Position numbers and translations under genes: made by a program. The notes beneath the pieces are model-generated. The model ran no database searches. It was not told where the DNA came from and saw only the letters and a program-made list of their open reading frames with translations. Of a DNA stretch of 64,000 nucleotides, positions 3,209 to 63,648 are shown in pieces. Positions within the stretch are counted from its first letter, which is position 1. Each line of letters begins with the position of its first letter. Source of the stretch: a virus; the IMG/VR virus record IMGVR_UViG_3300028361_000019, positions 1 to 64,000 of that record; one strand, 5' to 3'.

Positions 3209-4684
3209 TTATTTTAATTTAGCATTAATACATTCTTGAATCTTCTTAGCAGATTTAGCTCCAATACCTTTAAGAATAGTAAAATCTTCTATCTTTTTCA
3301 AGTTACCATAGTTAGTAATATCATTGTTAGCAAGAGCTTTTATGATTTTAGCGTCATCAATTATATTCTCAACCTTGGTATTTGCTCTGATTGTTTTCTT
3401 CTTTTCTTTTAAAACAACATCTGAAGGTTCTCTCTCATCTGATTCGATGTTATCAAAACTTTCTTTTTTAAACGACTTATTAAAACGAAGCCTCTCTTTT
3501 GTTTCAATAATGTCTTTATTTTTCTTGGTTGTATTAGTTTTATTGATTTCTTCAATCTCTCCTATATATTGTGATAAATTCATACCTACAGCATCAAGAA
3601 CTTTGGCTATATCAATAATTTCTAAAAATGAACTATCAAAATTAAACCCTCCAACGTTGAAGTCGAATTTGATTATATTGGCTCCATAAGTATAGATGTC
3701 GAGGTCTATCTCAAAATTAAGACTGAAATCGTTTACGTCCGACTTAGGTTTATCGTATGTAAATACGTAAATGTCACTATTTGCGCTAACATTTGATTTC
3801 CCAGATAAAGTCTTTCTTCTGTAGTTGATGTTTTTTTCACCTTTTCCAAGCTTATCAATTCCTTCTTTAAGTTTTCCAACAAAAAACTCTACCTCTTCTT
3901 TTCTTGCTGGAGTTAATTTGTAGTTTGTTTTAACAAAAGTCTTTGATGCTGGGGCTGCTAAGTTAAAGCCCATTCCAGAAATGGGATTTGGAGTCAATAG
4001 ATTTGACGCTGGCTTGTTGATTGCTGTCTTGATGTCGTCTTTTTTTTCTCCTCTTTTAAGTTCAGAAATCCTATCCATCAAATCACTTCTATCAGAATCT
4101 GAGGCTTTTTCTTTATTAACGAGCTCAGAAAATCTATCTTTTAAAATACTTCCGCTACCAGAGTCTTTAGGTTTTGACTCATCGACTCTATCCACACCTT
4201 TGCCCGCTATGCTCTTGCTTTCATATAAGTCATCAAGCTCATCCATAGGAGATTTTATTCTCTCTTTAAAAAGCTCTTTTTTATTTCCAGTAACAAACCT
4301 GCTCATTCTATCAACATCAAATTTGAATCCTCTGTACTCAAAGATTCTACCTGGCTCGTATGGTAGCGTATCTAAGTCGTCTTCTTTTGACTTTCTCTTA
4401 TCTTCTTTGCTTGATTCTTTTGTTATCGACTCTATGTCTTCTGAGTTAGTATTGATTCCGTGTTCAAAAACTGTCTCAACTATTTCTAATTCTTCTTTTT
4501 TTATTTTCTTACTTTTTGTTGCGAACATATCTTTTCGCAATTCTTTAAGAATTTGTTTTTTAAGTTTTTTGATTTCCTTCTTAGAGGTACCATAAAGCTC
4601 CTTAACAACCGATGCTTGAATTTCAGCTTCAATTTGTTTTTTAGCATTGTTTTTAATGCCTTCGATTAATTTTTGTTTTCCCAT
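3209..4684 (-). CDS. Uncharacterised protein with C-terminal helix-hairpin-helix
   Basis: A 491-residue protein. The first 280 residues are low-complexity and charged (Lys/Glu/Ser/Asp) and probably disordered or coiled. Residues about 280-390 contain a beta-rich region (SDIYVFTYDKP, FEIDLDIYTYGA). The last 45 residues form a clear helix-hairpin-helix, LKGIGAKSAKKIQ, the non-specific DNA-binding motif seen in repair proteins and in the RNA polymerase alpha C-terminal domain. The gene is immediately followed by small operon members and preceded by the RecB-like nuclease. A role in DNA binding is supported; the exact function is not. Confidence 0.75.
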   Translation of the reverse strand: MGKQKLIEGIKNNAKKQIEAEIQASVVKELYGTSKKEIKKLKKQILKELRKDMFATKSKKIKKEELEIVETVFEHGINTNSEDIESITKESSKEDKRKSKEDDLDTLPYEPGRIFEYRGFKFDVDRMSRFVTGNKKELFKERIKSPMDELDDLYESKSIAGKGVDRVDESKPKDSGSGSILKDRFSELVNKEKASDSDRSDLMDRISELKRGEKKDDIKTAINKPASNLLTPNPISGMGFNLAAPASKTFVKTNYKLTPARKEEVEFFVGKLKEGIDKLGKGEKNINYRRKTLSGKSNVSANSDIYVFTYDKPKSDVNDFSLNFEIDLDIYTYGANIIKFDFNVGGFNFDSSFLEIIDIAKVLDAVGMNLSQYIGEIEEINKTNTTKKNKDIIETKERLRFNKSFKKESFDNIESDEREPSDVVLKEKKKTIRANTKVENIIDDAKIIKALANNDITNYGNLKKIEDFTILKGIGAKSAKKIQECINAKLK

Positions 4685-4689
4685 TATTT

Positions 4690-5604
4690 CTATTTGTTTT
4701 CAGTTTTGTAATCAAGCAATATTTGTTTGTCTTGATTTTTGTTATTATTACACAGAGGGTGTCTTCCTCCTTTAAATTTGCAAAACATACATCCGAGAAA
4801 CTCGTTTCCTGTATGCTTTATTTTTGGAAATCTTTTATTAATATGAATACTCTCAACTGTTTCTGCCAGCTTTTCAAGTGATTCGTAAATTTCTTCTTTA
4901 GTTGAATTTACTTCTACGAACTGAATTCCTCCAGTACCAGACTCAGGTTTTTTTTTGTTCTTAAGTCTGTTTAGAACAATGTATTCACAACCAATGTCAT
5001 CAAGATTAATTTCATTTTTTCTTGCCCAGAAGTATTTATAAAATCTCATTTGCGCAAGAAAGGCTTCGTCAGCCATTTTCTTTTTTACATTCCACTTCTG
5101 GCCAGATGTCTTCCAGTCGATTATAACATACCTCCCAGTCTCTCTATCTTGAACTACAAGGTCTATAAACCCCTTAAAGTAGAACTCTCCGTATACGTGC
5201 TCAAACAAAGGTTCTTCTACTGATATTATTTTGTATTTTTTAATAATATCCTCAACAGACAAAGCATTTAGCAGCTCTTCTCCCTGCTGAAGGAACTCGT
5301 TAAGCTCTTGTTGGAAACCTGGTTCATCTTTCATGTTGTCAAGCATGTCTTTTGTAAAGGTTCTTTTAAAGAAATCAACCCTTCTCTTTAACCCAACTGA
5401 TTCTTTTAAAGTTTTTTCGAGAGCAGCATGCATAGCATTTCCGAAAAACAAATGCACAGTCATTGACTGCTCTGTTAGTTTCAGATGCTTCTCAACCAGA
5501 TGTCGATGACCACATTGGTTAAACAGGTTGAACTCACTAAAGCTAATATGAATTTTATTAGCATATTTAGTATTAAGCGCTGTATAGTTTGAATCCTTGT
5601 TCAT
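4690..5604 (-). CDS. PD-(D/E)XK exonuclease, RecB/Cas4-like with Fe-S cysteines
   Basis: The 304-residue protein has the layout of the PDDEXK_1 (RecB/Cas4) family. An early SFSEFNLFNQCGHRH segment gives the first cysteine, then FGNAMHAALE (the motif I helix). GFIDLVVQD supplies the catalytic Asp, and VIIDWKTSGQKW is the D/E-x-K core. The C-terminal GCMFCKF plus PLCNN supply three more cysteines, so four cysteines flank the nuclease core as in Fe-S-containing Cas4/AddB enzymes. It probably degrades DNA ends in recombination or host DNA breakdown. It heads the operon that ends with the SNF2 helicase. A short AT-rich gap separates it from a divergent gene at 5680. Confidence 0.85.
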   Translation of the reverse strand: MNKDSNYTALNTKYANKIHISFSEFNLFNQCGHRHLVEKHLKLTEQSMTVHLFFGNAMHAALEKTLKESVGLKRRVDFFKRTFTKDMLDNMKDEPGFQQELNEFLQQGEELLNALSVEDIIKKYKIISVEEPLFEHVYGEFYFKGFIDLVVQDRETGRYVIIDWKTSGQKWNVKKKMADEAFLAQMRFYKYFWARKNEINLDDIGCEYIVLNRLKNKKKPESGTGGIQFVEVNSTKEEIYESLEKLAETVESIHINKRFPKIKHTGNEFLGCMFCKFKGGRHPLCNNNKNQDKQILLDYKTENK

Positions 5605-10116: not shown

Positions 10117-10542
10117 CTATTTATTTCTTCTAATAATTTAGTTTCAAAATCATTTTCTTTTATCTCATTACCCCCAGAATCTAACTAAATTATAACCATT
10201 TTCTTTGGCTAATTTATTTTTAAACTTATCATTTTCAACATTTATCACTTGAGTTTCATTTAAAGTTTTATACAACTTAGGATGTCCATGCCAGTAATCT
10301 CCATCTGCTTCAATTAATAAATTATATTCTGGTAAGTAAAGGTCATAAATTTTATATTTAATATCATCAAAATAAACGTAAAAAGACTTTTCAAATTCAA
10401 TATTATTATCATTAAGTAATTCGCCAAACATTGGCTTTTTGCCTTCAAACTGCTTTACCATATCACTTAATACTTCTGGAGAATATGTTCTTCCATTCAA
10501 ATTTTCTTTATTAGCAATAGCTAAAATACCTTCTATTTTCAT
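10095..10542 (-). pseudogene. EDxHD/Vsr-like homing endonuclease inserted in gp47, frameshifted
   Basis: The frame from ATG 10542 encodes 124 residues and stops at 10168. The last two thirds (YKIYDLYLPEYNLLIEADG, then YWHGHP, then YNLVRFWG) are the Vsr/EDxHD-fold nuclease core. Removing one G from the run of five (bases 10171-10175) turns the end into RFWGNEIKENDFETKLLEE, the usual end of such enzymes, and the frame then closes at 10095, overlapping the next gene by 22 bases. The copy given here is therefore truncated by a one-base insertion, or the base is a sequencing error. The first 43 residues (NLNGRTYSPEVLSDMV, then KKPMFGEL) do not belong to the nuclease; they resemble the start of the T4 gp21-type prohead protease. 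Confidence 0.8.
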
Positions 10543-13240: not shown

Positions 13241-13261
13241 AACTAACTAATAATCAAGTCG

Positions 13262-15378: not shown

Positions 15379-15420
15379 TTCTTTTTATTTTATTATAAAT
15401 ATGTTAATTTAAAAAAACCC

Positions 15421-23074: not shown

Positions 23075-23284
23075 ATGGAAGTTACTCAAGAAAATATAAA
23101 CGGAACTGTAATAAACAGAACGGATAGCGAAATGTCATGGAGACTAATTCACGATGGAAACAGGGTTATAGACTTGTTTGAATCGTCTGGAACCACTGTG
23201 ACCATGTATGATATTTTCCTGGCATCAACCTTAGAAGAGTGTCAAGCTCAAATCTATTCCTTAGATTTAGACTATAACCCTTAA
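23075..23284 (+). CDS. Small protein after the fibre gene, 69 aa
   Basis: The start chosen is ATG 23075 (MEVTQENINGTVINRTD), two bases after the fibre gene stop; an upstream ATG at 23051 would overlap the fibre gene. The protein is acidic, with MYDIFLASTLEECQAQIYSL near the end. No family is recognised. Its place directly behind the adhesin suggests a fibre-assembly chaperone or a small structural protein, but that is only positional. It ends convergently with the next gene, with overlapping stop codons. Confidence 0.55.
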   Translation: MEVTQENINGTVINRTDSEMSWRLIHDGNRVIDLFESSGTTVTMYDIFLASTLEECQAQIYSLDLDYNP

Positions 23285-24156
23285 AGACCTTGAGAAAGAT
23301 TGAAGAACGTTTGCGCTCTATTAATATTGCTTCTCTCTTCTTTAACATCAATGTTACCATCAGAAAACTGTTTCTTCCTTGTAACAAGATTGTATTGTCT
23401 ATAAAGATTTCCATTGTCATCAAATATTGAGTAAACTCCAGTCTCAAGGTCTCTTGTTGAGTCTCCGTAAAGAACGTAGCTTAATGTTTTGATTGACTGG
23501 TCTACCATTTCAACTTCAACCATAACAGGGTCAAAGAAAGTGTTTGATATAAGTATTTGCTGACCTGATTTACCAAGGTCAGAACTAACAGTGTTGGTTA
23601 TTAGACTTGCTTCATCTGGAGTAAGTGTAAGAAATAATTGATTTCCATTAGGGTCAATTACATAAGTAGTAGAACTTGCGTTTGTTGTGTTATTGTTTGG
23701 GTTAACACTTACAAGGTCAGAGCTTGTAATTATTCTATGAAAGTTTTTAATCTTAACACCATTATCATCAAAATACTCCATTTGGTATCCCACAAGACTT
23801 CCAGTGCTTTGAAACTGTAGCTTTGGTATGATTATACCTTTTTTAGAAATTTGTATCTCCTGGTCGTTATTTGTTATGACGAATGAACAGTCAACTATTT
23901 CTGTTTGAAATATTTTTGGCCTAATTAAAAGCAAGTAAAACCCAAGTTGGTTGAATATGCTGGCTGGAAGTCTTAATTTATATCCACCATCTCCACCAAG
24001 CATTTTTCTAAATTCATTATTAGTAACACTATTGTATATTGGTTGGAAACTTGTGTCACCAAGCGATTCTCTATTTGGAGAATAAGAATATAACACATCA
24101 ACATCGTTAAAATCTGCGTCACTGAGCTTCACAGTACCATAAGTTCCTACAGCCAT
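23281..24156 (-). CDS. Virion protein, 291 aa (N-terminus MAVGTYGTVKL)
   Basis: The protein starts MAVGTYGTVKLSDADFNDVD and is beta-rich, with QLGFYLLLIRPKIFQTEI and repeated short strands. I do not recognise the family, but size, context and composition fit a virion structural protein. The last ten bases of an upstream homing endonuclease gene overlap its ATG. A diverged second copy of its first 12 codons lies at 25710-25772 on the other side of that insertion, so its present N-terminus was probably supplied by the mobile cassette. Confidence 0.7.
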   Translation of the reverse strand: MAVGTYGTVKLSDADFNDVDVLYSYSPNRESLGDTSFQPIYNSVTNNEFRKMLGGDGGYKLRLPASIFNQLGFYLLLIRPKIFQTEIVDCSFVITNNDQEIQISKKGIIIPKLQFQSTGSLVGYQMEYFDDNGVKIKNFHRIITSSDLVSVNPNNNTTNASSTTYVIDPNGNQLFLTLTPDEASLITNTVSSDLGKSGQQILISNTFFDPVMVEVEMVDQSIKTLSYVLYGDSTRDLETGVYSIFDDNGNLYRQYNLVTRKKQFSDGNIDVKEERSNINRAQTFFNLSQGL

Positions 24157-25082
24157 AGTTTTTCTTTTTTATATAAATAATCGGAAATAATTTTATTAAC
24201 ATTTTTTAAATCAAAATAAGGTATTCTCAAAAGGTTAATACCACTTTTTTTACAATACTCTGTTTTTAATATATCTCTCTGTTTCATTTCCTTAAACTTT
24301 ATTTTTGCTATAGATTTATCAAAATATAACCTCCAAGGCTCATAGTGATATTCTCCATCGTATTCTATACATATATTATAATATTGTAAATAGAAATCAA
24401 ATTTAAGGTGTCTATTTGTCTTAGCGTTCCTGCAATCATCAAAAATCTTTTGCTTCTCAAAATCTACATTATTTTTCTTTAAAAATAAAGCCACTTTTCT
24501 CTCTCCTTTGGATTCAGAACACTTTTGACAACCAGAACCCATCAGATGTATATATGGTTTTTGCTCAAACTCCCCGTGTATTGGACACATTATATTGATG
24601 GGCTTGTCATATCTTTCATAGGCAGTTTTCGAATAATCATATTTATTATCATGCTTTTCTGATGCATCATCAATGAAGTCTTCTGTAGTCCTGCCGACTC
24701 CAGCGCATTTTGGACAACCATTTCCATTAAGGTGTTGATTTGGTTTCTGCGCAAAATCACCATGCTTAATACAACTAATAACAACTTTAATTTTATTTCC
24801 AATATATTTCACCTTTGAGTAGTTGTATCTATCTCCATGAACGTCCTTTGCTTTTTTAACAAACTCTTTAGTATTTCCGTTTTTATTTCCAGCGCAAATT
24901 GAGCAGCCATTTTTAGCTGATACATGTCCATTTGGACTTTGTTCAAATACACCATGGTCTACACATACAATTTTAATCTTCGTTGAGTTATTTTTGTAAT
25001 TCACCAAAGAGTAATCATACTTATATCCATGGATGATTTTTGCTTTTTTAATAAATTCTTCTGTTGTTAGTTTTCTTGGCAT
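24147..25082 (-). CDS. Zinc-ribbon repeat homing endonuclease (DUF723/EDxHD type)
   Basis: The 311 residues contain three copies of a 55-65 residue repeat, 'HGxxYDYSxVxYxxxxxKIxIxCxxHGxFxQxPxxHxxxxGCxxC' (for example CVDHGVFEQSPNGH, CIKHGDFAQKPNQH, CPIHGEFEQKPYIH). Each has paired CxxH and CxxC-type ligands as in Hef-like phage homing endonucleases. A C-terminal Vsr/EDxHD nuclease core follows (GERKVALFLKK, then KFDFYLQYYNICIEYDGEYH, then YCKKSGINLLRIPY). A GTATTTATAATAAAA promoter-like box lies 14 bases upstream. It overlaps the start of the downstream virion gene by ten bases and looks intact. Confidence 0.88.
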   Translation of the reverse strand: MPRKLTTEEFIKKAKIIHGYKYDYSLVNYKNNSTKIKIVCVDHGVFEQSPNGHVSAKNGCSICAGNKNGNTKEFVKKAKDVHGDRYNYSKVKYIGNKIKVVISCIKHGDFAQKPNQHLNGNGCPKCAGVGRTTEDFIDDASEKHDNKYDYSKTAYERYDKPINIMCPIHGEFEQKPYIHLMGSGCQKCSESKGERKVALFLKKNNVDFEKQKIFDDCRNAKTNRHLKFDFYLQYYNICIEYDGEYHYEPWRLYFDKSIAKIKFKEMKQRDILKTEYCKKSGINLLRIPYFDLKNVNKIISDYLYKKEKLWL

Positions 25083-25169
25083 AAGCCTTTTATTATAAAT
25101 ACATAAGATTTTTAAAAATCAACATCAGCTAATTTTATATTGATTAAAAATATTTCCATATTTATTAAT

Positions 25170-25721
25170 ATGGACACTATCAGGCTTATAATTAGAGAAG
25201 AAATCCGCATCATATTAAACGAAGAACGTCAAGGTGGTGGCTTAAGTCAGTTTATTAAGAACTGGGGCGATTTTGTATTAGATATTTCTGATTATAGAGA
25301 ACAAGATTTAGCACAGCTATATAAAGAGGGGGCCAATTCTCTAAGGTTTAATCTGGAACATAAAGAATTAATTTATCGTGGGATGTCAGTTAATGATGAA
25401 TGGCTTAATCAATTTATGAAAAGTGATTCTATAAGGTTAGGTAAATTCTGGTCTTTCGATAAAGTTGTTAGCAAAGATTTCATGCAAGCTCCAGATGTTT
25501 ATGATGATGAATTTTCTAAGTTTAAAGGGAAAAATAAATTGTTTATTATAGCTAAAGCTCCTGGGTATTTAAGTCATATTGATGTTGATGCTACGGTTGC
25601 TCATGGAATTGTCTCATCAGAAAGTGAATTAAGGCTATTAAAAGGCGCTCCACTTGACGTGGTTTCAATAAAGTTTAACGGCAAGGAGTTGAACTTCGAG
25701 AACAAGAATCTAACTTCTTAA
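25170..25721 (+). CDS. Putative ADP-ribosyltransferase with capsid-targeting-like N-terminus
   Basis: Start taken at ATG 25170 (MDTIRLIIREEIRII), which has a CATATTTATTAAT box just upstream; an ATG at 25140 would place the box inside the gene. Residues 1-20 form an amphipathic helix ending LNEE, like the cleaved targeting peptide of T4 packaged proteins (T4 Alt is also an ADP-ribosyltransferase). The catalytic R-S-E pattern is visible: LIYRGMS with Arg70, GKFWSFDKVVSKDF with Ser95 and GIVSSESELRLLKG with the ExE at 151-153. It would modify host proteins early in infection. The fold assignment is by motif only. Confidence 0.6.
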   Translation: MDTIRLIIREEIRIILNEERQGGGLSQFIKNWGDFVLDISDYREQDLAQLYKEGANSLRFNLEHKELIYRGMSVNDEWLNQFMKSDSIRLGKFWSFDKVVSKDFMQAPDVYDDEFSKFKGKNKLFIIAKAPGYLSHIDVDATVAHGIVSSESELRLLKGAPLDVVSIKFNGKELNFENKNLTS

Positions 25722-25772
25722 TAAAAACACTTTATCTGCTAATTTAACTGTTCCGTAAGTTCCTACTGCCAT
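25710..25772 (-). pseudogene. Stranded 5' end of the virion gene at 24156
   Basis: The frame from ATG 25772 reads MAVGTYGTVKLADKVFLLRS and stops. Its first eleven residues are identical to the N-terminus of the virion gene that starts at 24156. The upstream AT-rich leaders of both copies are also alike (ATTTATAT followed by an A-rich stretch). It overlaps the 3' end of the ADP-ribosyltransferase gene. It is most simply the original beginning of the virion gene, cut off by the endonuclease/ART insertion. Confidence 0.75.
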
Positions 25773-33243: not shown

Positions 33244-33577
33244 TTATACTAAATTAATAGACTCAATTTTTTCTTTGACTGGGTTAAATAACAAAATGTT
33301 TTCAACACCACCTTCGGTTATAATAACCCCATCATAATTGCTGTGTAACCAATTTAAAACACCCCTCGTTCTTTCTATTAGATTTGAGGGTAGTTTTATA
33401 AACAAACTCACCATAACTTGAAGCTTCATTTTTATTTGGTGAAAAAAACGTCCCATCATAAACATGTCCTATATCATTAAAATCATGTTTATTTGGAGTC
33501 CCATGATAAATAACACTATGATTTTTATGGAGGATATTAGTTATTTCTTCTTGAATTATTTCACGAATCTTATTCAT
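33244..33577 (-). pseudogene. ADP-ribosyltransferase-like protein, frameshifted
   Basis: The frame from ATG 33577 starts MNKIREIIQEEITNIL, the same amphipathic N-terminus as the ART at 25170. It continues SVIYHGTPNKHDF, then GTFFSPNKNEASSYGEFVYK, the strand-1 His/Gly-Thr and 'S...A..YG' motifs of ART/PARP-like proteins, before stopping at 33332. Coding continues one frame over (about 33421 down to 33244): LIERTRGVLNWLHSNYDGVI and ENILLFNPVKEKI, the usual C-terminal 'D.vi...e.vvfnp..i'. The shift falls near TATAAAACTACCC. It was probably an intact protein of about 110 residues. Its start overlaps the HNH endonuclease gene as ATGAATAA. Confidence 0.6.
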
Positions 33578-48067: not shown

Positions 48068-48101
48068 TTATATAAATAAAATTTTTACCTATTTATAAAT
48101 T

Positions 48102-50645: not shown

Positions 50646-51469
50646 TTATCTACTTTTTAAAATCTTAACCCACTCATCAAGACTCTTTTCTGGTCTCCAA
50701 TTCAGAACTTTCTCTGTATCTGAGGGAAATTCTTCTGAAGTAAATCTTTCTCCTTTTCTTTCTGGAATCATGATTACATCATCACTAAATTTCTTGGCAA
50801 GTTCAATCAATTCAACATTTTGCCCAGAACGAAGCATCCACTCTCTGTTTAAATTCATGTGAGTTGTCATCTCAACTCCACGAACAACGTCTTCAACGTG
50901 TGTAAAATCTCTTGATTGAGTTCCAGGAGAAACCACAGTAATTGGCCTGCCTTCTTTCATAATGTTTTTTGTCTGCGGAAACCCAATCATCACGAAGTGT
51001 GGTTGGGATGAGCAGGCCTCTTTTTGTTAGTATACGACAAATATACAAAAAAAATTTAATTAATTTCAAGTTTTCTTTTTTTTATCTGCACCACCATTTC
51101 CAAATTTAGAACTACTGGCTGAATAAATTATTTTTGGCACCTTTTCTTTTACAGTATTCAATAACTTCAGATGTACCACGAAGATTTGATTTCATAACAT
51201 ACTCTATGTCATCAAAGCTTTTGACAATTCTTGAATATTCTCCAAGGTGATATACGATGTTTGGGTTAAACTGAGTTGTTACAAATCTAAGGTTTTATTT
51301 CCCAAGTATTTCCATGAACATAGTGAACGCCATCAATGTGATTATCTCTACTCCCTGTGAAGTAATTATCAAGAGCCATTATTTCAGCATAAGGATGCTC
51401 TTCTTTTAAATGCTTTACCAAGTGAGTTCCTATAAACCCAGCCCCGCCCGTTACTAATATTTTATTCAT
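50646..51469 (-). pseudogene. NAD-dependent sugar epimerase, decayed
   Basis: The 5' frame from ATG 51469 gives [20 protein letters not shown], the Rossmann GxxGxxG start of GalE/WbpP-type epimerases. It stops at 51287 after GNTWEI, but coding goes on in a second frame (NPNIVYHLGEYSRIVKSFDD, then NLRGTSEVIEYCKRKGA) and a third (IIYSASSSKFGNGGA). About 70 codons that should hold the YxxxK site are then missing. The C-terminal part from about 50993 (GRPITVVSPGTQSRDFTHVE) resumes in a good frame to 50646. Two frameshifts plus an internal deletion make it inactive. The start overlaps the gmd stop as ATGAATAA. Confidence 0.85.
51038..51070 (-). promoter_or_regulatory. Possible host-type promoter inside the epimerase relic
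   Basis: On the minus strand TATATTTG (51038-51045) follows CTTG (51067-51070) after 21 bases, close to the TTTG-N-TAnnTTTG consensus. It occupies the region where the epimerase has lost its middle, and points at the epimerase 3' fragment and the metallophosphatase gene. Confidence 0.4.
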
Positions 51470-52499
51470 GTTCTAAATCATATTTAACCATTCTTTCAAC
51501 AAGTTCGTCAAGGTCAACTTTTGCCTCCCATCCAAGAACCGCTTTTGCCTTTGATGGGTCTCCAATTAACCTATCAACTTCTGCTGGTCTAAAATACCTT
51601 GGGTCCACCTCTACAAGCAGGTCTCCAGATTCTTTGTCGTAACCTTTTTCATTCACACCCTCACCTCTCCATTCAATATCCCAACCAAGATGTTTAGCTG
51701 TCATCTCAATAAATGTACGAACTTTATAAGTTCTACCAGTTGCAAGAACAAAATCTTCTGGCTTATCCTGCTGCAACATTCTCCACATTCCCTCTACATA
51801 CTCCTGAGCATGTCCCCAATCTCTTTCTGCCTCCATGTTGCCAATAGTCAAAACCTTACGCTTGCCTTTTTTGATTTGAGCCATGTTGGTTGTAATCTTT
51901 CTTGTAACGAATGTTTTACCTCTTCTCTCACTTTCGTGATTAAACAAAATTCCATTGCATGCAAATAAATTATAGGATTCACGATAATTCTTGATTATCC
52001 AAAAACCATAAAGCTTAGCGCAGCCATAAGGGCTTCTTGGGTGCATCGGAGAGTTCTCGTCATAAAAACCTTCACTGTTCTTGTTATACTCAAGCCCTCC
52101 ATATAATTCAGAGGTTGATGCTTGGTAAAACTTAGCACCAGGACAATGCGCTCTCATTGCTTCAAGAATAGTAAGCGTTCCAAGTGCGTCTACATTTGCT
52201 GTATAGTGAGGTACTTCAAAAGAAACTGCAACATGCGATTGAGCTGCCAGGTTATATATCTCATCTGGCTGAGTCTCTGCAATAAGCCTCATAATGTTTG
52301 AGGGGTCTGTAACATCTCCGTGATGAAGATGAAGTCGCTCGTGGTCCATTATGTGTTCAATTCTTTCTGTATTGAATGTACTTGCTCTTCTCATTGTTGC
52401 ATGCACCTCATACCCTTTTTCTAAAAGAAGTTCCGCAAGGTAAGAACCATCTTGTCCTGTAACGCCCGTAACCAGGGCAATTTTGTTTTTTTCTATCAT
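51462..52499 (-). CDS. gmd: GDP-mannose 4,6-dehydratase
   Basis: Start taken at ATG 52499 ([20 protein letters not shown]), whose ATG overlaps the upstream stop as ATGA. The NAD(P)-binding [14 protein letters not shown] and the [15 protein letters not shown] segment with the GMD-specific Arg are present. So are [10 protein letters not shown] (catalytic Thr/Ser-Glu), [16 protein letters not shown] (YxxxK) and [14 protein letters not shown]. The length of 345 residues is normal. The enzyme converts GDP-D-mannose to GDP-4-keto-6-deoxymannose, the precursor of GDP-L-fucose, GDP-L-colitose and GDP-perosamine. A ColD-like and an Fcl-like gene follow in the same island. A LAGLIDADG endonuclease gene abuts its 5' end. 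Confidence 0.93.
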
Positions 52500-53311
52500 A
52501 TTTCCCACTTATATTTGTATTGTTCCATTATTCCTTTTTCGGGTGTAATCCATTTCAAAAAAGCAATTGTATCTTTTTTATCAAACCTTATTCTATTTCT
52601 ACTTGTTACTGATGGTTTAAATCCTTTTTTATTTAATTTTTCTACTAAAAATTGATTATCTTCTTTTGTAAAAGAATCTGTGCATAAATAAACATTTCCA
52701 TCAGTTGTATAACCGTCTCCAACAAACCACCAATAGCAAGATTTTGGTGTAATCAAAATATCTCTTGGCACTATTTTTTCTTTTTTTGGATACCATCTTA
52801 AATTTTCACTCAATAAATCATGATACATATTAGATTTGGAGTGATAACATTTTGTATGTTCGCTTTGCCAAATTGGACTAAAATCAATAGAATGTAATTC
52901 TTTAAAAATCTCTTCTGGAGTTTCTTTAAACTTAAAGCCAAAAGTCAATCTTGCTGATATTCTTGATTTTTCAGATAAACACCCGTCACTTAGTAATAAT
53001 CCATCTAAAACCTCTTTTTCTTCATTACTTAAATTACAGTACCTAAATTTAGAATCATCCCATTTACTTGATTCGCTCATTTTTTCTTTAGACTCTTCTG
53101 AATGACTTTTTCCATAAAAGGCGTTTAAATCACCTTTTCTGCCCTTTTTTTTATTAACTTCATCTGAATACTTTCTACCCTCACCTTGTTGGCCATTATA
53201 TCTTCCAGAACAAACTCTGGAGCAAAACTCTTTTTCTCTTTCTCTTTTTCTTTTGGGATTAAATTCAAACTCTTCATTACATAATTTGCATTTCTTTTTT
53301 TCCTTTTCCAT
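52496..53311 (-). CDS. LAGLIDADG-family homing endonuclease
   Basis: The 271 residues have an N-terminal zinc-finger-like [11 protein letters not shown] and FCSRVCSGR, a NUMOD3-type segment [20 protein letters not shown], then the two LAGLIDADG-type helices [13 protein letters not shown] and [14 protein letters not shown], the usual positions of the two acidic catalytic residues. This is the only member of its class in the window. A CTATTTATAATAAAA box lies 12 bases upstream. The stop overlaps the gmd start as ATGA. A faint copy of the gmd-like N-terminal pattern (NAFITGIAG) lies directly upstream at 53347-53373. Confidence 0.8.
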
Positions 53312-53360
53312 AACTTTTTATTATAAATAGTTATAAAAATTTCTATTCCAGCAATACCTG

Positions 53361-53660
53361 TTATAAATGCATTTTATATTCTTCGCATTTTAATTTTTCT
53401 CTTCTATAATAAAAATCGTTATCATATTCATCTTTTATAAATTCTCCAACAGTTAAATTTGATAATCTAATTCCAATTGTAGGTGAATACATATAATTAA
53501 ACAACATTTCTAAATTACTATTAGTTGCCTTCATAAATGATTCGATGTTTAATGTGGATTTAATTCTATTATAATAATCCTCTTTACCTTCAAACATTTT
53601 CTCGTTTACTATTTTTAACAACTCCGCTTCTACGTCTATACCATATTTTTTCATATCCAT
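53361..53660 (-). CDS. Uncharacterised protein, 99 aa
   Basis: Helical, with KKYGIDVEAELLKIVNEKMF and a charged C-terminus. Its start overlaps the aminotransferase stop as TAATG, so the two are translationally coupled. Its last codons run over a region resembling a broken dehydratase N-terminus, so its 3' end may not be original. No family recognised. It could be a small subunit or accessory of the sugar pathway. Confidence 0.55.
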   Translation of the reverse strand: MDMKKYGIDVEAELLKIVNEKMFEGKEDYYNRIKSTLNIESFMKATNSNLEMLFNYMYSPTIGIRLSNLTVGEFIKDEYDNDFYYRREKLKCEEYKMHL

Positions 53661-54841
53661 TACTTAATTGCGTCAGTTACTGTTTTACAAATAAACTCTA
53701 TTTCCTTCTTGCCCATCTTAGGGTGATTAGGAACATAAATACCACAGTCATCGACTGTTTTTGCATTTAGAGTTTCGTGTCTACCATATCTTTTGATGAA
53801 GAAAGGTTGAGTTCCCATTGAGCCGCAGATAAGTGGTCTACACTCAACATCAGCTTCAATAAGTGCTGCTACAGCTTTTTCTTTATCTTTCTTAGATTGG
53901 AATATCATTGGATAACAAAAAGATGCTGTGAATGAATCTTTGTGCTCTGTCGGCTTCCATATTTTCTTTTTCTTGTCGTATGATTTAATTGCATCCAAGA
54001 AGTAGTAGAAGTTTTCGTTTCTTGTATCAATCATGTCATCAACTTTATCAAGCTGCTTAATTCCAATTACTGCCTGAAGGTCTGTTGACCTAAGATTGAA
54101 TCCTGGCTCATAGAAAGTGTATAAGGCAGAGAATTCATCCACTCCCCACTTAGTTCTTAATCTTTGTTGAGTCGCTGAGTCAAGGTCTCTATCCCACCCA
54201 TGACTTCTAAGCATTACAAGAAGGTCATAAACATCTTTATCGTTCGTACAAACCATTCCGCCCTCAATAGTACTCATTGTATGGCCGAAGTAAGTTGAAA
54301 ACGATGACATCAATCCAAAGTTTCCAAGACGAACTCCGTCAAACTCAGTTCCTTGAGATTCACAATTGTCTTCGAGAAGTTCAACTCCATAAGTTTTACA
54401 AAGTTCAACAATCTTATCCATATCTGGAGAAAGACCAAGAACTGAAACAAGAATCATTGCTGCAGGTTTGTGGTGTCTAAATATAGCTTCAAGTTGACTT
54501 ACATCAACAGCAAGATTATTCATGTTACAATCAACGATAAGAGGGTCGAATCCAAGTTGGATTACTGGAGCCATATCAGTTGCCCAAGCAAGAGCTGGAA
54601 CCACCACTTTATTATTTCTTAGGTTACCCATCACTTTAAGCGCATAAAGCATGAGAAGGTTCGCTGAAGAACCAGAGTTTACAAATACAGAATATTTACT
54701 ACCAATCCATTTGGACCATTTCTCTTCAAATTCTCTCGTTTTTGGTCCCATAGTCAAGCGGGGCGCTGGTTTTTGAGACAACCACTTTATAAGGTTTGCA
54801 ATATCCTCATCATCTATTGTGTCTTTTACTAATTTTATCAT
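53660..54841 (-). CDS. ColD-like GDP-4-keto-6-deoxymannose 3-dehydratase
   Basis: Start taken at ATG 54841 (MIKLVKDTIDDEDI). The fold-type I aminotransferase family is clear: FVNSGSSANLLMLYALKVMG, VVPALAWATDMAPVIQLG, LLEDNCESQGTEFDG. The PLP lysine position, however, reads SSFSTYFGHTMSTIEGGMV with His187 instead of Lys. In ColD of E. coli and Salmonella the lysine is replaced by His188 in the same motif, which makes the enzyme a 3-dehydratase rather than an aminotransferase. It would make GDP-3,6-dideoxy-4-keto-mannose, the colitose precursor. Its 5' end has a duplicate at 56167-56271. Confidence 0.8.
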   Translation of the reverse strand: MIKLVKDTIDDEDIANLIKWLSQKPAPRLTMGPKTREFEEKWSKWIGSKYSVFVNSGSSANLLMLYALKVMGNLRNNKVVVPALAWATDMAPVIQLGFDPLIVDCNMNNLAVDVSQLEAIFRHHKPAAMILVSVLGLSPDMDKIVELCKTYGVELLEDNCESQGTEFDGVRLGNFGLMSSFSTYFGHTMSTIEGGMVCTNDKDVYDLLVMLRSHGWDRDLDSATQQRLRTKWGVDEFSALYTFYEPGFNLRSTDLQAVIGIKQLDKVDDMIDTRNENFYYFLDAIKSYDKKKKIWKPTEHKDSFTASFCYPMIFQSKKDKEKAVAALIEADVECRPLICGSMGTQPFFIKRYGRHETLNAKTVDDCGIYVPNHPKMGKKEIEFICKTVTDAIK

Positions 54842-54846
54842 AATTT

Positions 54847-55140
54847 TTATTTTTGATTTATAAACATATTTGCTATACACTTTGAAATAATATTCAAATT
54901 TTCTTTAAAGAAATCTTCACCTTCTGGAGAACTATTCCAAAACATAAATCCTGGAGTATTTTCAATTTTTTTCATTTGTTCTATATTTTTTTTTGACACC
55001 TCTTCATCAACTCTTAACTCTAAACAAATATTTTGTCCTAACTGAATTGTTCCTTGGTCGTCTTTTTTTAAATAACCAACCATACCAACTGGCATTTCTG
55101 TTTTAAAAACTTCTTTAAAATAAACCTCTCTTATTGTCAT
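54847..55140 (-). CDS. Uncharacterised protein between endonuclease and ColD-like gene, 97 aa
   Basis: The sequence TIREVYFKEVFKTEMPVGMV followed by IENTPGFMFWNSSPEGEDFF is alpha/beta and charged. It has no recognised family. It lies one base after the GIY-YIG endonuclease gene and five bases before the ColD-like gene, all inside the interval between the two copies of the ColD-like N-terminus. It therefore entered with the mobile cassette or is part of it. Confidence 0.5.
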   Translation of the reverse strand: MTIREVYFKEVFKTEMPVGMVGYLKKDDQGTIQLGQNICLELRVDEEVSKKNIEQMKKIENTPGFMFWNSSPEGEDFFKENLNIISKCIANMFINQK

Positions 55141-56133
55141 TTATATTTCGTTTAATTTTTTATTTAACCCGTTCTTTATTAAAAAATTATTATAAGCATC
55201 TGCAGCTTCAATCTCTGTATCAAAAGTTCCAACATACTTATGTTTTCCATTATTCCAAACACTTGTCTCCCATTTATCTTTTTTAGCTCTATATGTTACT
55301 CCTGTGAATTGAGAGGAAAACTTCTTAGAGATGTCTATGCTCTTCCAGTCTTTTATGTTGTTTAATTTTGTCTCATCTCCATATAGCTCATAAGCTTTCT
55401 GGTTGTATGCAACAGCTGCATCAATTTCTTTTTTGAAGTGTCCAATAATAATCGACTCTCTATCAAACCTCAGCGTAGCTCTATAAAGCTTTTGAGTAGA
55501 TATGTAGCTTACTCCTATAAAATTGGAACTTGAACTGTCGTGTTTATAGCCAATTCCATTTTTAGAAATCTTGTCTTTAATCTCTTGACTATGTGTCCTG
55601 CCCAAATTTATCTCTCTCAATTTTTCTTTTGTCTCGTCAGACATCTCCCTGCCCTTATTTGCTTCAGAGATTTTCCTACTAATCTCCTTTTTCTTTTTCT
55701 CAGAGAAGTTAGAACGTGTCTTCATCATTTTCTTTTTCACCTCCTCTGGGGGCTTTCTTCCAAGAAGCTTTCCTTTGTTGCCTTTAGAAATTTTTCTCTT
55801 TGTTTCCTCCGATAAAATCCTTCCAGTAGCGCCTTCTCCTCCGTCTGTAGCATTAACCAAAATTCCTTTACTCTTATCCGCTCTTCCGAGTAATTTTATA
55901 TAAAACTCCTCAGCGTAATTACATCTACCTTCACTCTCGCAAATTTTAACCAGTTTTATCTCTGGCAATAAACCTTCCTTTTTGAGAGACTTAATCCAGT
56001 TGGTCTTATGAGTTCTTGATGAGTCTTGCATGTGCCCATTCATTAGTCTATAAGTTAACTTCTTAGTGGTTTTGCCCACGTATCTAACTTCTCCAGCCCT
56101 TGGGTCAATTAGAAAATAAATTTTGTATTCCAT
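55141..56133 (-). CDS. GIY-YIG homing endonuclease with NUMOD3 and two AP2 domains
   Basis: The 330 residues carry a GIY-YIG core with KIYFLIDPRAGEVRYVGKTT (variant of GIY...YIG), the Arg-bearing YRLMNGH and YAEEFYIKLLGR with the Glu. NUMOD3 repeats follow (ILSEETKRKISKGNKGK; MSDETKEKLREINLGR; HSQEIKDKISKNG). Two AP2-type DNA-binding domains close the protein (SNFIGVSYISTQKLYRATLR; SQFTGVTYRAKKDKWETSVW). A CTATTTATAG box lies four bases before the ATG. It sits between the stranded and current N-termini of the ColD-like gene. It appears intact. Confidence 0.88.
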   Translation of the reverse strand: MEYKIYFLIDPRAGEVRYVGKTTKKLTYRLMNGHMQDSSRTHKTNWIKSLKKEGLLPEIKLVKICESEGRCNYAEEFYIKLLGRADKSKGILVNATDGGEGATGRILSEETKRKISKGNKGKLLGRKPPEEVKKKMMKTRSNFSEKKKKEISRKISEANKGREMSDETKEKLREINLGRTHSQEIKDKISKNGIGYKHDSSSSNFIGVSYISTQKLYRATLRFDRESIIIGHFKKEIDAAVAYNQKAYELYGDETKLNNIKDWKSIDISKKFSSQFTGVTYRAKKDKWETSVWNNGKHKYVGTFDTEIEAADAYNNFLIKNGLNKKLNEI

Positions 56134-56166
56134 AACTATAAATAGCTAAAAAAACTAAATTATTAA

Positions 56167-56271
56167 CTAACCTTTTGTAAGTCTTGGGTAGGTTTTTAAC
56201 CATTCGATTAAGTTGTCTACATCATCTTTGTCGATGGTGTCTTTTACGAGTGCAATTTTTTCTTTAGCCAT
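56167..56271 (-). pseudogene. Stranded 5' end of the ColD-like gene
   Basis: The 34-codon frame reads MAKEKIALVKDTIDKDDVDN then LIEWLKTYPRLTKG and stops. The intact ColD-like protein starts MIKLVKDTIDDEDIANLIKW followed by LSQKPAPRLTMG. The two align without gaps over 21 residues and again at PRLT. It follows the Fcl-like gene as the next coding element, so it is probably the original start of the aminotransferase-family gene in the Gmd-ColD-Fcl order, cut off by the endonuclease cassette. Confidence 0.85.
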
Positions 56272-56324
56272 GTTTCATATCATTTTAATAATAATATGAA
56301 AATCATTTCAAATAATCAAGTGGT

Positions 56325-57239
56325 TTATTTCCAGGTTTGCTGTAAAATAGAATAGGTTGAGCCTATTCCGTGATAAAGTCTTGTTGGTTTAAAATCTGGA
56401 AATATACTTTTCATTTTTTCTATTGAAACATCTTTTCTAAATTGACCATCTGGCATTGTTGAATCATATTCAATTTTCATACCATCTGCTTTGCAAGCTC
56501 TGATTGCTGCTCTTGCAATATCATCAATAGAAACATTTTGTTCTGTAGCCACATTGAAGCTGTCATAAACGTTTTCATAAATACATCTTCTGATGATAGC
56601 AGCAAGGTCGTTTGAGTGCATAAACTGTCTCAACGGAGCTCCTGTTCCAAATAAAGTAATTTTTTCTTCACCAGTAGATTTTGCTTGGTGAATCTTTTTT
56701 ATGAGCGCAGCAACAAAATGACTATTTTCTCCAAACTTATCGTGCTCTCCATAAAGATTGCAAGGAGTAAGGTATTGATAGTTGGTGCCGTGTTCTTTAT
56801 TGCAAGCATCTATTTGAACTGCCAGGCATCTCTTAGCGTATCCATATGAAAAGTTTGTAGGAGTCGGAGGCCCTTGGTGAAGCATCTCTTCTGTCATTGG
56901 GTATTCGTCAACTTTATCTGGATATATACATGTACTTAGTATTCCAATAAATCTTTCAACACCATTAAACTTAGCATACTCAACAAGGAGCGTGTTCATT
57001 AAAACATTGTCAGTAAAATAAGTGGATGGCTTTTTTATATTGTCAATTATTCCACCAACTTTTGCTGCAAGATGAATTACTATTCTTGGCTGAAGTTCTT
57101 GATACATTTGAGCAACGCCTCTTTCTGATGTTAAGTCATAGTCTTTTGACGATAAATAAACTGCGCCTGGCATTATCTTTTTAAGCGACCTGCCAACCAT
57201 CCCGCTACCACCTGTAATTACTATCTTATTTTGTTCCAT
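56325..57239 (-). CDS. fcl: GDP-L-fucose/GDP-L-colitose synthase (Fcl/ColC family)
   Basis: The 304 residues show KIVITGGSGMVGRSLKK (NADP site), HLAAKVGGIIDN, LSTCIYPDKVDEYPMTEEML with the catalytic Ser and Cys, SYGYAKRCLAVQI (YxxxK) and YQYLTPCNLYGEHDKFGENS, all hallmarks of Fcl/WcaG. The protein epimerises and reduces GDP-4-keto-6-deoxy-sugars. In a ColD context the homologue ColC makes GDP-L-colitose, otherwise GDP-L-fucose; sequence alone does not decide. The next gene downstream in the operon is the stranded ColD-like 5' end. A GT11-like gene precedes it by three bases. Confidence 0.85.
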   Translation of the reverse strand: MEQNKIVITGGSGMVGRSLKKIMPGAVYLSSKDYDLTSERGVAQMYQELQPRIVIHLAAKVGGIIDNIKKPSTYFTDNVLMNTLLVEYAKFNGVERFIGILSTCIYPDKVDEYPMTEEMLHQGPPTPTNFSYGYAKRCLAVQIDACNKEHGTNYQYLTPCNLYGEHDKFGENSHFVAALIKKIHQAKSTGEEKITLFGTGAPLRQFMHSNDLAAIIRRCIYENVYDSFNVATEQNVSIDDIARAAIRACKADGMKIEYDSTMPDGQFRKDVSIEKMKSIFPDFKPTRLYHGIGSTYSILQQTWK

Positions 57240-62161: not shown

Positions 62162-62914
62162 TTATTTATCTACAAATAATTCATCAAATTCTACGTATTC
62201 TAAAAACTCATTTATTGGAGAATCTGGTGAACTTGATATAATTTCAAAATCAGGTATACTTTTTTGTTGCTCTGAGAAAAGCTTCCAGTAGTGCGTGCCT
62301 GCGTGATAAGTGTCTTTTCCTTGGTTTACTCCCTCTTTGAACGTTTTAATATCAAAGTAGTCTGGTCGAAAATGACTTAAATCCTCGTTTGAAGCAACGC
62401 TTGCGCTTCTACTAACATATTTAGCATCCACACCCAAAAGAACTACTCTTTTATATCCAAGAGAACGAGCGACATCCACAGCGCATGCTCCAGCGTTTCC
62501 ACAGAAGCTAACCCTCTTTCCATCAAGTTCATGACTCGTATCTTTGGTGGTTTTTAAAAGACTCCCACTTCCGCAGTCAGATATTCTGACTATTTTTTCT
62601 CCATTTTCTGACCTCATTTTATCAACCCATCCCGACATTTTGTAAGGATTGCCAAGGTGTTTCATTATGAAAAGCTTTTTAATATCTCTTTCTTTTATTA
62701 TGCTTTCTATATCTTTGTGAATTGTTTTTATCAACTTAGAGTCTATAATAAGATAATAAGTTGGAGTGAACCCCCAGTCATCATAAGCAATATACTGTCT
62801 ATTCATACTAATCGTATTTTGACCAGCCAGTTTAGACATATCTATTTTGTTTAAGCTTTTTCCACTGCCTATGATAAAAACAGTATCCTTATTTGCTATC
62901 TTATCGTTTTTCAT
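62162..62914 (-). CDS. DUF115/MptE-like or GT42-like protein, copy 1
   Basis: The 250 residues start NKDTVFIIGSGKSLNKIDMS, then NTISMNRQYIAYDDWGFTPT and YYLIIDSKLIKTIH. This is the 'GxGxSLNxxD ... N...... PTYYxxxD' pattern of DUF115 (Maf-type flagellin glycosyltransferases) and, more distantly, of GT42 sialyltransferases. The C-terminal half includes FCGNAGACAVDVARSLGYKR then VVLLGVDAKY. A role in transferring the CMP-activated sugar made in this cluster is possible. It is a tandem paralogue of the next gene, roughly two thirds identical by eye. Confidence 0.7.
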   Translation of the reverse strand: MKNDKIANKDTVFIIGSGKSLNKIDMSKLAGQNTISMNRQYIAYDDWGFTPTYYLIIDSKLIKTIHKDIESIIKERDIKKLFIMKHLGNPYKMSGWVDKMRSENGEKIVRISDCGSGSLLKTTKDTSHELDGKRVSFCGNAGACAVDVARSLGYKRVVLLGVDAKYVSRSASVASNEDLSHFRPDYFDIKTFKEGVNQGKDTYHAGTHYWKLFSEQQKSIPDFEIISSSPDSPINEFLEYVEFDELFVDK

Positions 62915-62919
62915 AATAT

Positions 62920-63648
62920 TTAAAATAATTCATCAAACTCTATATATTCTAAGAACTCATTTATTGGAGAACCTGGAGAGCTTGATATAATTTCAAAATC
63001 AGGCATGCTTTTTTGTTGCTCTGAGAAAAGCTTCCAATACTTTGTGCCTGAATTAACTCCATCTGGACCCTGATGTACTCCTTGCTTAAAAGTGTTAACA
63101 TCAAAATAGTCAGAACGAAAGTGACTCAAATCCTTATTGGCCTTAACACTTTCTTTTCTGTCAGTGTATTTAGCGTCTATTCCTAATAGTACAACTTTTT
63201 TGTATCCAAGAGAACGAGCGACCTCTACAGAACAAGCGCCAGCATTGCCATCAAATCCCATTCTTTTATTGTCTAAGTCAGGTCCTGATGTTACAAATCT
63301 TTCGCTTCCACCTGTGTGTATTTTCACTATCTTATCGCCTTTTTCTTTTTTCATTATATCAATCCATGCTGCCATTTGATTCTGTGGATGATGCATGATG
63401 AAAAATTTTTTAATATCTGACTCTTCTTTTATTAATTTCTCCACGTCTTTGTGAATCGTATTTATTAGTTGAGCATCTATAATAAGGTAGTAAGTTGGAA
63501 TAAATCCCCAGTCATCATAAGCAATGTACTGTCTATTCATACTAATCGTGTTGTGATTAGCCAATTTAGACATATCCACTTTATTTAGACTATTGCCACT
63601 GCCAATAATAAAAACAGTGTCTTTGTCTGCTATTTTTTTATTCTCCAT
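62920..63648 (-). CDS. DUF115/MptE-like or GT42-like protein, copy 2
   Basis: The 242 residues have the same order of motifs as copy 1: DKDTVFIIGSGNSLNKVDMS, NTISMNRQYIAYDDWGFIPT, DGNAGACSVEVARSLGYKKV and SPGSPINEFLEYIEFDELF. It differs mainly in the middle (residues 85-130) and in a shorter C-terminus. The five-base spacing indicates a recent tandem duplication with separate specialisation, perhaps for different acceptors. It heads this part of the operon after the edge gene. Confidence 0.7.
   Translation of the reverse strand: MENKKIADKDTVFIIGSGNSLNKVDMSKLANHNTISMNRQYIAYDDWGFIPTYYLIIDAQLINTIHKDVEKLIKEESDIKKFFIMHHPQNQMAAWIDIMKKEKGDKIVKIHTGGSERFVTSGPDLDNKRMGFDGNAGACSVEVARSLGYKKVVLLGIDAKYTDRKESVKANKDLSHFRSDYFDVNTFKQGVHQGPDGVNSGTKYWKLFSEQQKSMPDFEIISSSPGSPINEFLEYIEFDELF

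Follow-up and report, generated by a model that had tools for sequence, protein, structure and literature searches.

The ColD-like gene of an uncultivated phage is a chimera whose break coincides with the insertion site of a homing endonuclease gene (HEG). Its present 5′ end appears to belong to a separate lineage, and its former 5′ end, 34 codons long, lies stranded on the far side of the nuclease. This arrangement is probably the product of a free-standing homing element that cuts the ColD-like gene near codon 34, restores the gene with a recoded 5′ end of its own, and pushes the 5′ end of the recipient upstream. The DNA analyzed, referred to here as the window, comprises bases 1–64000 of a phage record of 101,529 bases in total. 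Read along the minus strand, the locus consists of fcl, the 34-codon frame, a 330-aa endonuclease, a 97-aa ORF, the ColD-like gene, a 99-aa ORF, a LAGLIDADG endonuclease, and gmd.

The left flank of the target locus is formed by an fcl-like GDP-sugar epimerase gene (56325–57239, minus strand; Pfam Epimerase, 1.4e-42). This gene shares 74–80% nucleotide identity with its counterparts in the related contigs L004, L005, and L029, and fcl stands immediately 5′ of ColD in L004, L005, L029, and L045. The whole ColD-like gene runs on the minus strand from an ATG at 54841 to 53660, and its protein has a DegT/DnrJ fold according to Pfam (7e-66). The gene body (53660–54745, minus strand) is GDP-4-keto-6-deoxymannose 3-dehydratase-like, with E. 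coli ColD/WbdK as the best solved relative (2gms, 4e-61). In ColD, a histidine replaces the PLP-binding lysine of aminotransferases. A GH pair preceding an invariant T.EGG motif is itself invariant across the alignment and is a candidate for, and consistent with, this histidine. On the other side of the locus, the LAGLIDADG endonuclease gene (52496–53311, minus strand) neighbors gmd. A swap of gmd by this second nuclease gene was considered and rejected, as no displaced gmd start was seen and the somewhat higher divergence of gmd is confined to its first block. Downstream of gmd, the gene for an NAD-dependent epimerase (50646–51469) is distributed over several frames in the window and is a single open frame in L005 and L045.

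The stranded 5′ end of the ColD-like gene (56167–56271, minus strand) consists of 34 codons followed by TAG. A preliminary description of this DNA had matched its N-terminus at 56271 to the present one at 54841. Both positions are correct, and the homology is recovered by tblastn: a search of the 101.5-kb record with its own present ColD-like protein yields, besides the full gene, nothing but the stranded copy (E 3.4e-5 to 5e-5). The same description aligned the two N-termini without gaps, which is accurate for the first part (KIALVKDTIDKDDVDNLIEWL / MIKLVKDTIDDEDIANLIKWL) and fails over all 34 codons, where a 2-residue gap is needed (KTYPRLTKG / SQKPAPRLTMG). At the nucleotide level, the stranded copy is 79–86% identical to the 5′ ends of L004, L005, L029, and L045 and 61% identical to the present 5′ end.

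In these four relatives, the ColD gene opens with an N-terminus of the stranded type, in slight variants of M.KEKITLVKDTIDKDDVDNLIEWLKTYPRLTKG. In L004, L005, and L045, fcl, ColD, and gmd follow one another in order with the nuclease insert absent, and in L029, fcl is followed by a ColD start of the stranded type, at which point the contig stops. Relatives were drawn from viral contigs and from bacterial and archaeal assemblies, L045 being a contig placed in a bacterial MAG. An inverted-repeat leader 5′ of the stranded start codon (56273–56301, minus strand) occupies the same place in L004, L005, and L029, whose gene start is of the stranded type. The leader folds with z-scores of −2.7 to −3.6 in the window, L004, and L005, and does not do so in L045. 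Because four relatives begin ColD in this way and the native leader is kept, the stranded frame is identified as the old start, displaced from its gene. This answers the question, left by the preliminary description, of which N-terminus is ancestral; the concern that the 34 codons might be a conserved independent gene finds no support, as the relatives carry this frame solely as the start of a full-length gene.

The 5′ end that the gene carries at present spans 32 codons (54746–54841, minus strand) and is set apart from its body by nucleotide identity and by a two-codon insertion. Compared with L004, L005, L029, and L045, the window gene is 59–66% identical before Gly34 and 78–83% identical after it. 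Compared with L003, identity is 85–86% on both sides of Gly34. This change-point, computed in codons, was not equaled in strength by any of 2000 permutations. Among relatives close to the window gene, the present start type is common to L003 only. Its two-codon insertion (SQKPAPRL versus KTYPRL) is otherwise found in L011, L012, L013, L033, L037, L048, and L054. In the gene-body tree, the window and L003 group with L004, L005, and L045 (support 100/100), and the seven insertion-bearing relatives sit elsewhere. A tree of the 5′ block alone, which is too short for a firm tree, places the new start with the insertion-bearing group. The two-codon insertion and the drop in identity point to a foreign origin of this 5′ end, although an AU test restricted to 108 nt of that block did not reject a single clade for old and new starts (p = 0.137). 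Since the new 5′ end thus seems to stem from another lineage than the old one, the event is best described as an exchange and not as a duplication of the gene's own end.

Alignment of the stranded copy with uninterrupted genes places the junctions of the insert precisely. On the left, the native sequence ends after ...CTTACAAAAGG (56170–56171, minus strand); the stranded copy tracks the native gene through ...AAAGG at 56171 and then enters TTAGTTAATAATTTAG and TAG. On the right, the present gene is native-like from GGACC onward. Both boundaries fall within the same codon, Gly34. The insert measures about 1.42 kb; a stop codon comes first, then a TATTTATA motif. The left junction, from the stranded copy to the HEG, is known from one metagenomic record. 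The right junction is reproduced in L003, which comes from a different sample and ends inside the 97-aa ORF: the contig begins 85 bases before the new start, and these bases encode the tail of that ORF. Over the last 25 codons of the ORF before ColD, L003 differs from the window at 18 of 75 nucleotides, with no frameshift or stop. Being found together in L003 as well, the 97-aa ORF and the new 5′ end form one unit.

The TATTTATA motif directly 5′ of the endonuclease (56137–56144, minus strand) is over-represented, with 27 copies in the window versus 8.5 expected. Copies occur shortly before several gene starts, those of HEGs included, for example at 56137–56144, 53322–53329, 25094–25101, 48090–48097, and 15394–15401. 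This promoter-like motif is probably the promoter core of the phage.

As originally described, the endonuclease (55141–56133, minus strand) and the 97-residue ORF (54847–55140, minus strand) occupy the space between the two starts. The 330-aa nuclease is a GIY-YIG/NUMOD3/AP2 homing endonuclease, with Pfam matches to AP2 (6.9e-11) and NUMOD3 (1.2e-6) and a PHROGs match to the homing endonuclease family phrog_314 (7e-17). A profile built from eight endonuclease relatives matches the GIY-YIG structure 9u75 (1.9e-7) and, more weakly, I-TevI (1mk0, 0.056). Residues Y6, Y18, G20, and E75 are invariant in the endonuclease alignment, giving the Y, YxG, and E positions. The Pfam GIY-YIG model (PF01541) gives no score on the window endonuclease alone and scores three of the eight relatives. 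Assignment to the GIY-YIG family combines a catalytic domain recognized at the profile level with the DNA-binding modules NUMOD3 and AP2. A direct search for the window HEG in viral contigs returned none, and a fold prediction from three sequences was discarded, its pLDDT being 38. The passenger ORF, whose tail is shared with L003, has no family match in Pfam or PHROGs and, L003 aside, no relatives in viral contigs or phage records; its single-sequence fold, at a pLDDT of 47, is of insufficient quality for interpretation.

The same arrangement is found at a second locus of the window, where the nuclease belongs to another family. Here, a 5′ end, MAVGTYGTVKLAD, is stranded together with a TATTTATA leader of its own (25725–25772, minus strand) upstream of a phrog_559 zinc-finger HEG (24147–25082, minus strand). 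The next gene, the target (23281–24156, minus strand), has its replacement leader and its start within the 3′ end of this HEG. Six relatives without the HEG (L126, L127, L128, L129, L130, and L132) have a gene that starts as the stranded MAVGTYGTVKLAD, with the TATTTATA leader. In L131, a related HEG occupies the same place and the old start is reduced to a remnant, KLVDVDF, upstream. A separate ORF on the plus strand (25140–25721; MDTIRLIIREEI..., with an IYRGMS motif) sits inside the stranded start of this locus and splits it at KLAD, as a nested second insertion.

Two further examples come from other phages. In L159 (IMGVR_UViG_3300032030_004232, 3895–5504), a HEG at 4001–4909 lies between a stranded MKKGTHNVLTTLGTNNGSTVNRQKDDFYA (MKKGTHNVLTTLGTNNGSTVNRQKDDFYAI*) and a methylase-like gene beginning MDNKTHGVLVTLGTKNGSQKFQEPNGFYSTDP.... 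A search for relatives of this target gene returned only itself. L159 is read as an independent 5′ swap, in which the stranded fragment is the putative ancestral start. L200 (2880–5072) and L203 share one layout, in which a stranded ...SMKPNDFLEIIRFL stands just before the HEG and matches the gene start region, ...SMKPKDFLDIIRFI.... Their target gene is presumably ligase-like, as a KMDGFR motif, recognized by eye, resembles that of DNA ligases. L202 has a related HEG and gene, with the stranded copy absent.

A survey with tight position limits found matching flanks of at least 28 bits at 4 of 55 HEG loci, versus 2 of 2164 shuffled pairings. The four loci are the present ColD locus, L159, L200, and L163. 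The last of these was discounted as a 5′ swap, since paralogous genes of 138 and 131 aa, both entire, lie on either side of a HEG of the same family (3522–5519), indicating a whole duplicated gene around the HEG. L171, L174, and L204 were also set aside, as they look like tandem HEG paralogues. No swap was seen at any of seven distant GIY-YIG loci (L044 and L191–L196), and most loci of the zinc-finger HEG family have none, so the arrangement is recurrent but not general. The preliminary description held that the class of enzyme makes no difference to the outcome. This view is borne out for two families, GIY-YIG at the ColD locus and CapR/DUF723 zinc-finger (phrog_559) at 24147–25082, L159, and L200, and does not extend to a universal rule, given the loci without a swap.

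From the observed architecture, ancestry of the pieces, boundaries, and recurrence, we infer a cycle of cutting, homing, resistance, and fragment reuse. The mobile unit would consist of the GIY-YIG endonuclease gene, the passenger ORF, and the recoded first 32 codons of the ColD-like gene. Its enzyme would cut the uninterrupted gene of a co-infecting phage at or near codon 34, and the element-bearing genome would serve as the repair template. Recombination on the right side would take place within the ColD body. On the left side, the 5′ fragment that lies displaced upstream of the nuclease could take part, or the joining could have been illegitimate when the element inserted for the first time. 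The recipient would end with an intact hybrid ColD gene, and its former 5′ end would stay upstream as the stranded fragment, able to serve as a homology arm. Native and replacement start sequences differ at the putative cut site, and the hybrid start should resist recutting; the model predicts that the native start is cut and the hybrid start is spared. The 97-aa ORF is left unexplained by this homing model.

A different history would separate the two events: an ordinary HEG insertion, with the 5′ end regained later from a distant homologue in an independent recombination event. Phage genomes are commonly mosaic, no donor genome holding both the HEG and the new start was found, and the HEG is not visible in L003, since that contig ends. 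Such a sequence of events is nevertheless unlikely, because the swap and the insertion end at the same codon, the 97-aa ORF accompanies the new start in L003, and the coupling recurs at the second window locus, in L159, and in L200.

The state of the stranded copy bears on the age of the insertion and on whether the fragment has a function. The gene bodies of the window and L003 differ with a dS of about 0.82. Under neutrality, about 32 replacements are expected in the stranded copy over one branch since the window/L003 split, a dating that presumes that the hybrid in both goes back to common descent or to transfer of one and the same element. Compared with L004, the stranded copy has two replaced codons in all (dN about 0.05). 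It is thus nearly undecayed, which suggests that the element reached this genome recently, the copy having opened a working gene up to that time, or that the copy is still under selection. Selection would be expected if the 34-codon frame were retained because it acts, for instance, as a leader peptide or in translational coupling, a view favored by the very few replacement changes and by the retained leader inverted repeat. Recent displacement accounts for the missing decay, however, and in relatives the frame occurs only as part of the full gene. Together with the stranded copy of the second window locus, which is broken by another insertion, and the mere remnant in L131, this makes a retained function very unlikely. 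A recent arrival of the element in the window genome is what homing from an L003-like donor would predict. A second change-point near codon 300 (p = 0.019), beyond which the window gene is no longer closer to L003 than to L004 and L005, is not clear with L003 as the focus; it is suggestive of the end of a co-conversion tract.

That both junctions are covered by one record only raises the question of a metagenomic assembly artefact. The recovery of the right junction in another sample, the reproduction of the second locus of the same genome at 100% amino acid identity in contig 3300035034_003563, and the same layout in unrelated phages make this explanation extremely improbable. Least credible of all is the idea that a self-splicing intron interrupts the gene, or that the gene is split, with the 34 codons still in use as its first exon: introns often harbor HEGs and the reading frame at the junction lines up with codon 35 of relatives, but an Rfam search of 54500–56700 gave no match even at E 1, and the gene already has a complete in-frame N-terminus, shared with L003.

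The homing model places the ColD element beside several known systems. In Aeh1, the free-standing phage HEG mobE reportedly lies inside the coding gene nrdA, whose function is retained with the gene split into two working pieces; at the ColD locus, by contrast, a single complete hybrid gene is restored. The free-standing HEGs of T4 (Seg and Mob) spread by double-strand-break repair with co-conversion of flanks and, like the present nuclease gene, are intronless genes between phage genes (PMC2988022). In the available text of that review, a word search for duplicated ends or gene fragments gave none, and the classical cases are, to that extent, not described with a replacement gene end or a stranded end (PMC2988022).

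The closest parallel is offered by WHO elements of Torulaspora and Lachancea yeasts, in which a nuclease cuts FBA1 and repair swaps in the resistant 3′ end of the element, with the displaced 3′ end remaining beyond the nuclease as a homology arm (Coughlan et al. 2020; PMC7282813). Allele-specific cutting has been shown for WHO6 (PMC7282813). Like WHO elements, the phage locus has a HEG beside its target, one gene end exchanged for a diverged version, the displaced end beyond the nuclease, and a target-gene phylogeny that is discordant across the cut site, here a putative one. Unlike WHO elements, it exchanges the 5′ end instead of the 3′ end and belongs to bacteriophages instead of yeasts. The nucleases also differ (GIY-YIG or CapR/DUF723 versus HO-like, with an intein fold and zinc finger), as do the targets (ColD-like versus FBA1). 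By this analogy, the phage element would work like a WHO element without being a member of that group.

A comparable outcome is described for mobile-ORF hybrids of fungal mitochondria (Allomyces atp6; Glomus atp6, atp9, cox2, and nad3), in which a foreign C-terminus replaces the native one (PMC3630166). According to the available part of that account, the endonuclease is of the LAGLIDADG type or, in atp9, GIY-YIG, so that the outcome is independent of nuclease class (PMC3630166). There, a foreign gene end joins the resident gene in phase and the native end has been pushed beyond the endonuclease ORF, a layout that the phage locus matches for the 5′ end, with a probable foreign origin of that end. 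The mitochondrial cases differ in concerning C-terminal ends and, in the text available, in having no passenger ORF described (PMC3630166).

The same solution is already familiar from the 3′ ends of genes in yeast nuclei and fungal mitochondria, and the ColD locus would extend it to the 5′ end and to phages. Its occurrence there, with two or more unrelated nuclease families, suggests convergent evolution. In the open-access phage papers examined, a stranded gene end combined with a replacement end was not found described. We regard it as an evenly balanced proposition that phages harbor a recurrent, so far undescribed class of such elements, built on free-standing nucleases from several families that bring along a recoded 5′ end for the target, restore the gene, resist cutting through the recoding, and use the old start as a homology arm. 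If this holds, these elements would be a repeated cause of N-terminal exchange in phage genes. They would offer a way for an intronless HEG to invade a coding gene without destroying it, and with no need for splicing, by bringing a replacement for the part cut off. They would also be a source of the short orphan ORFs beside phage HEGs and of sudden N-terminal changes in phage genes.

Several other features of the window touch on HEGs. An IREEI-like motif opens short ORFs beside HEGs at 25140–25721 and 33332–33577 of the window and in L026 (10531–10995). The ORF at 33332–33577 weakly matches ART-PolyVal (E 0.001), and the IYRGMS motif of the ORF at 25140–25721 looks ADP-ribosyltransferase-like. 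At 10168–10542, the C-terminal part of a HEG is fused in frame to an N-terminus that looks protease-like (MKIEGILAIANKENLNGRTYSPEVL; match to the head maturation protease family phrog_207, E 3e-4). A GIY-YIG stub (MAGIYKIKNMINGRAYIGSAINFSRRIG...) at 13243–13110 on the minus strand, with a weak PF01541 match, is a HEG remnant between two genes. Finally, the two adjacent genes at 62162–63648 are tandem duplicates with 69% amino acid identity.
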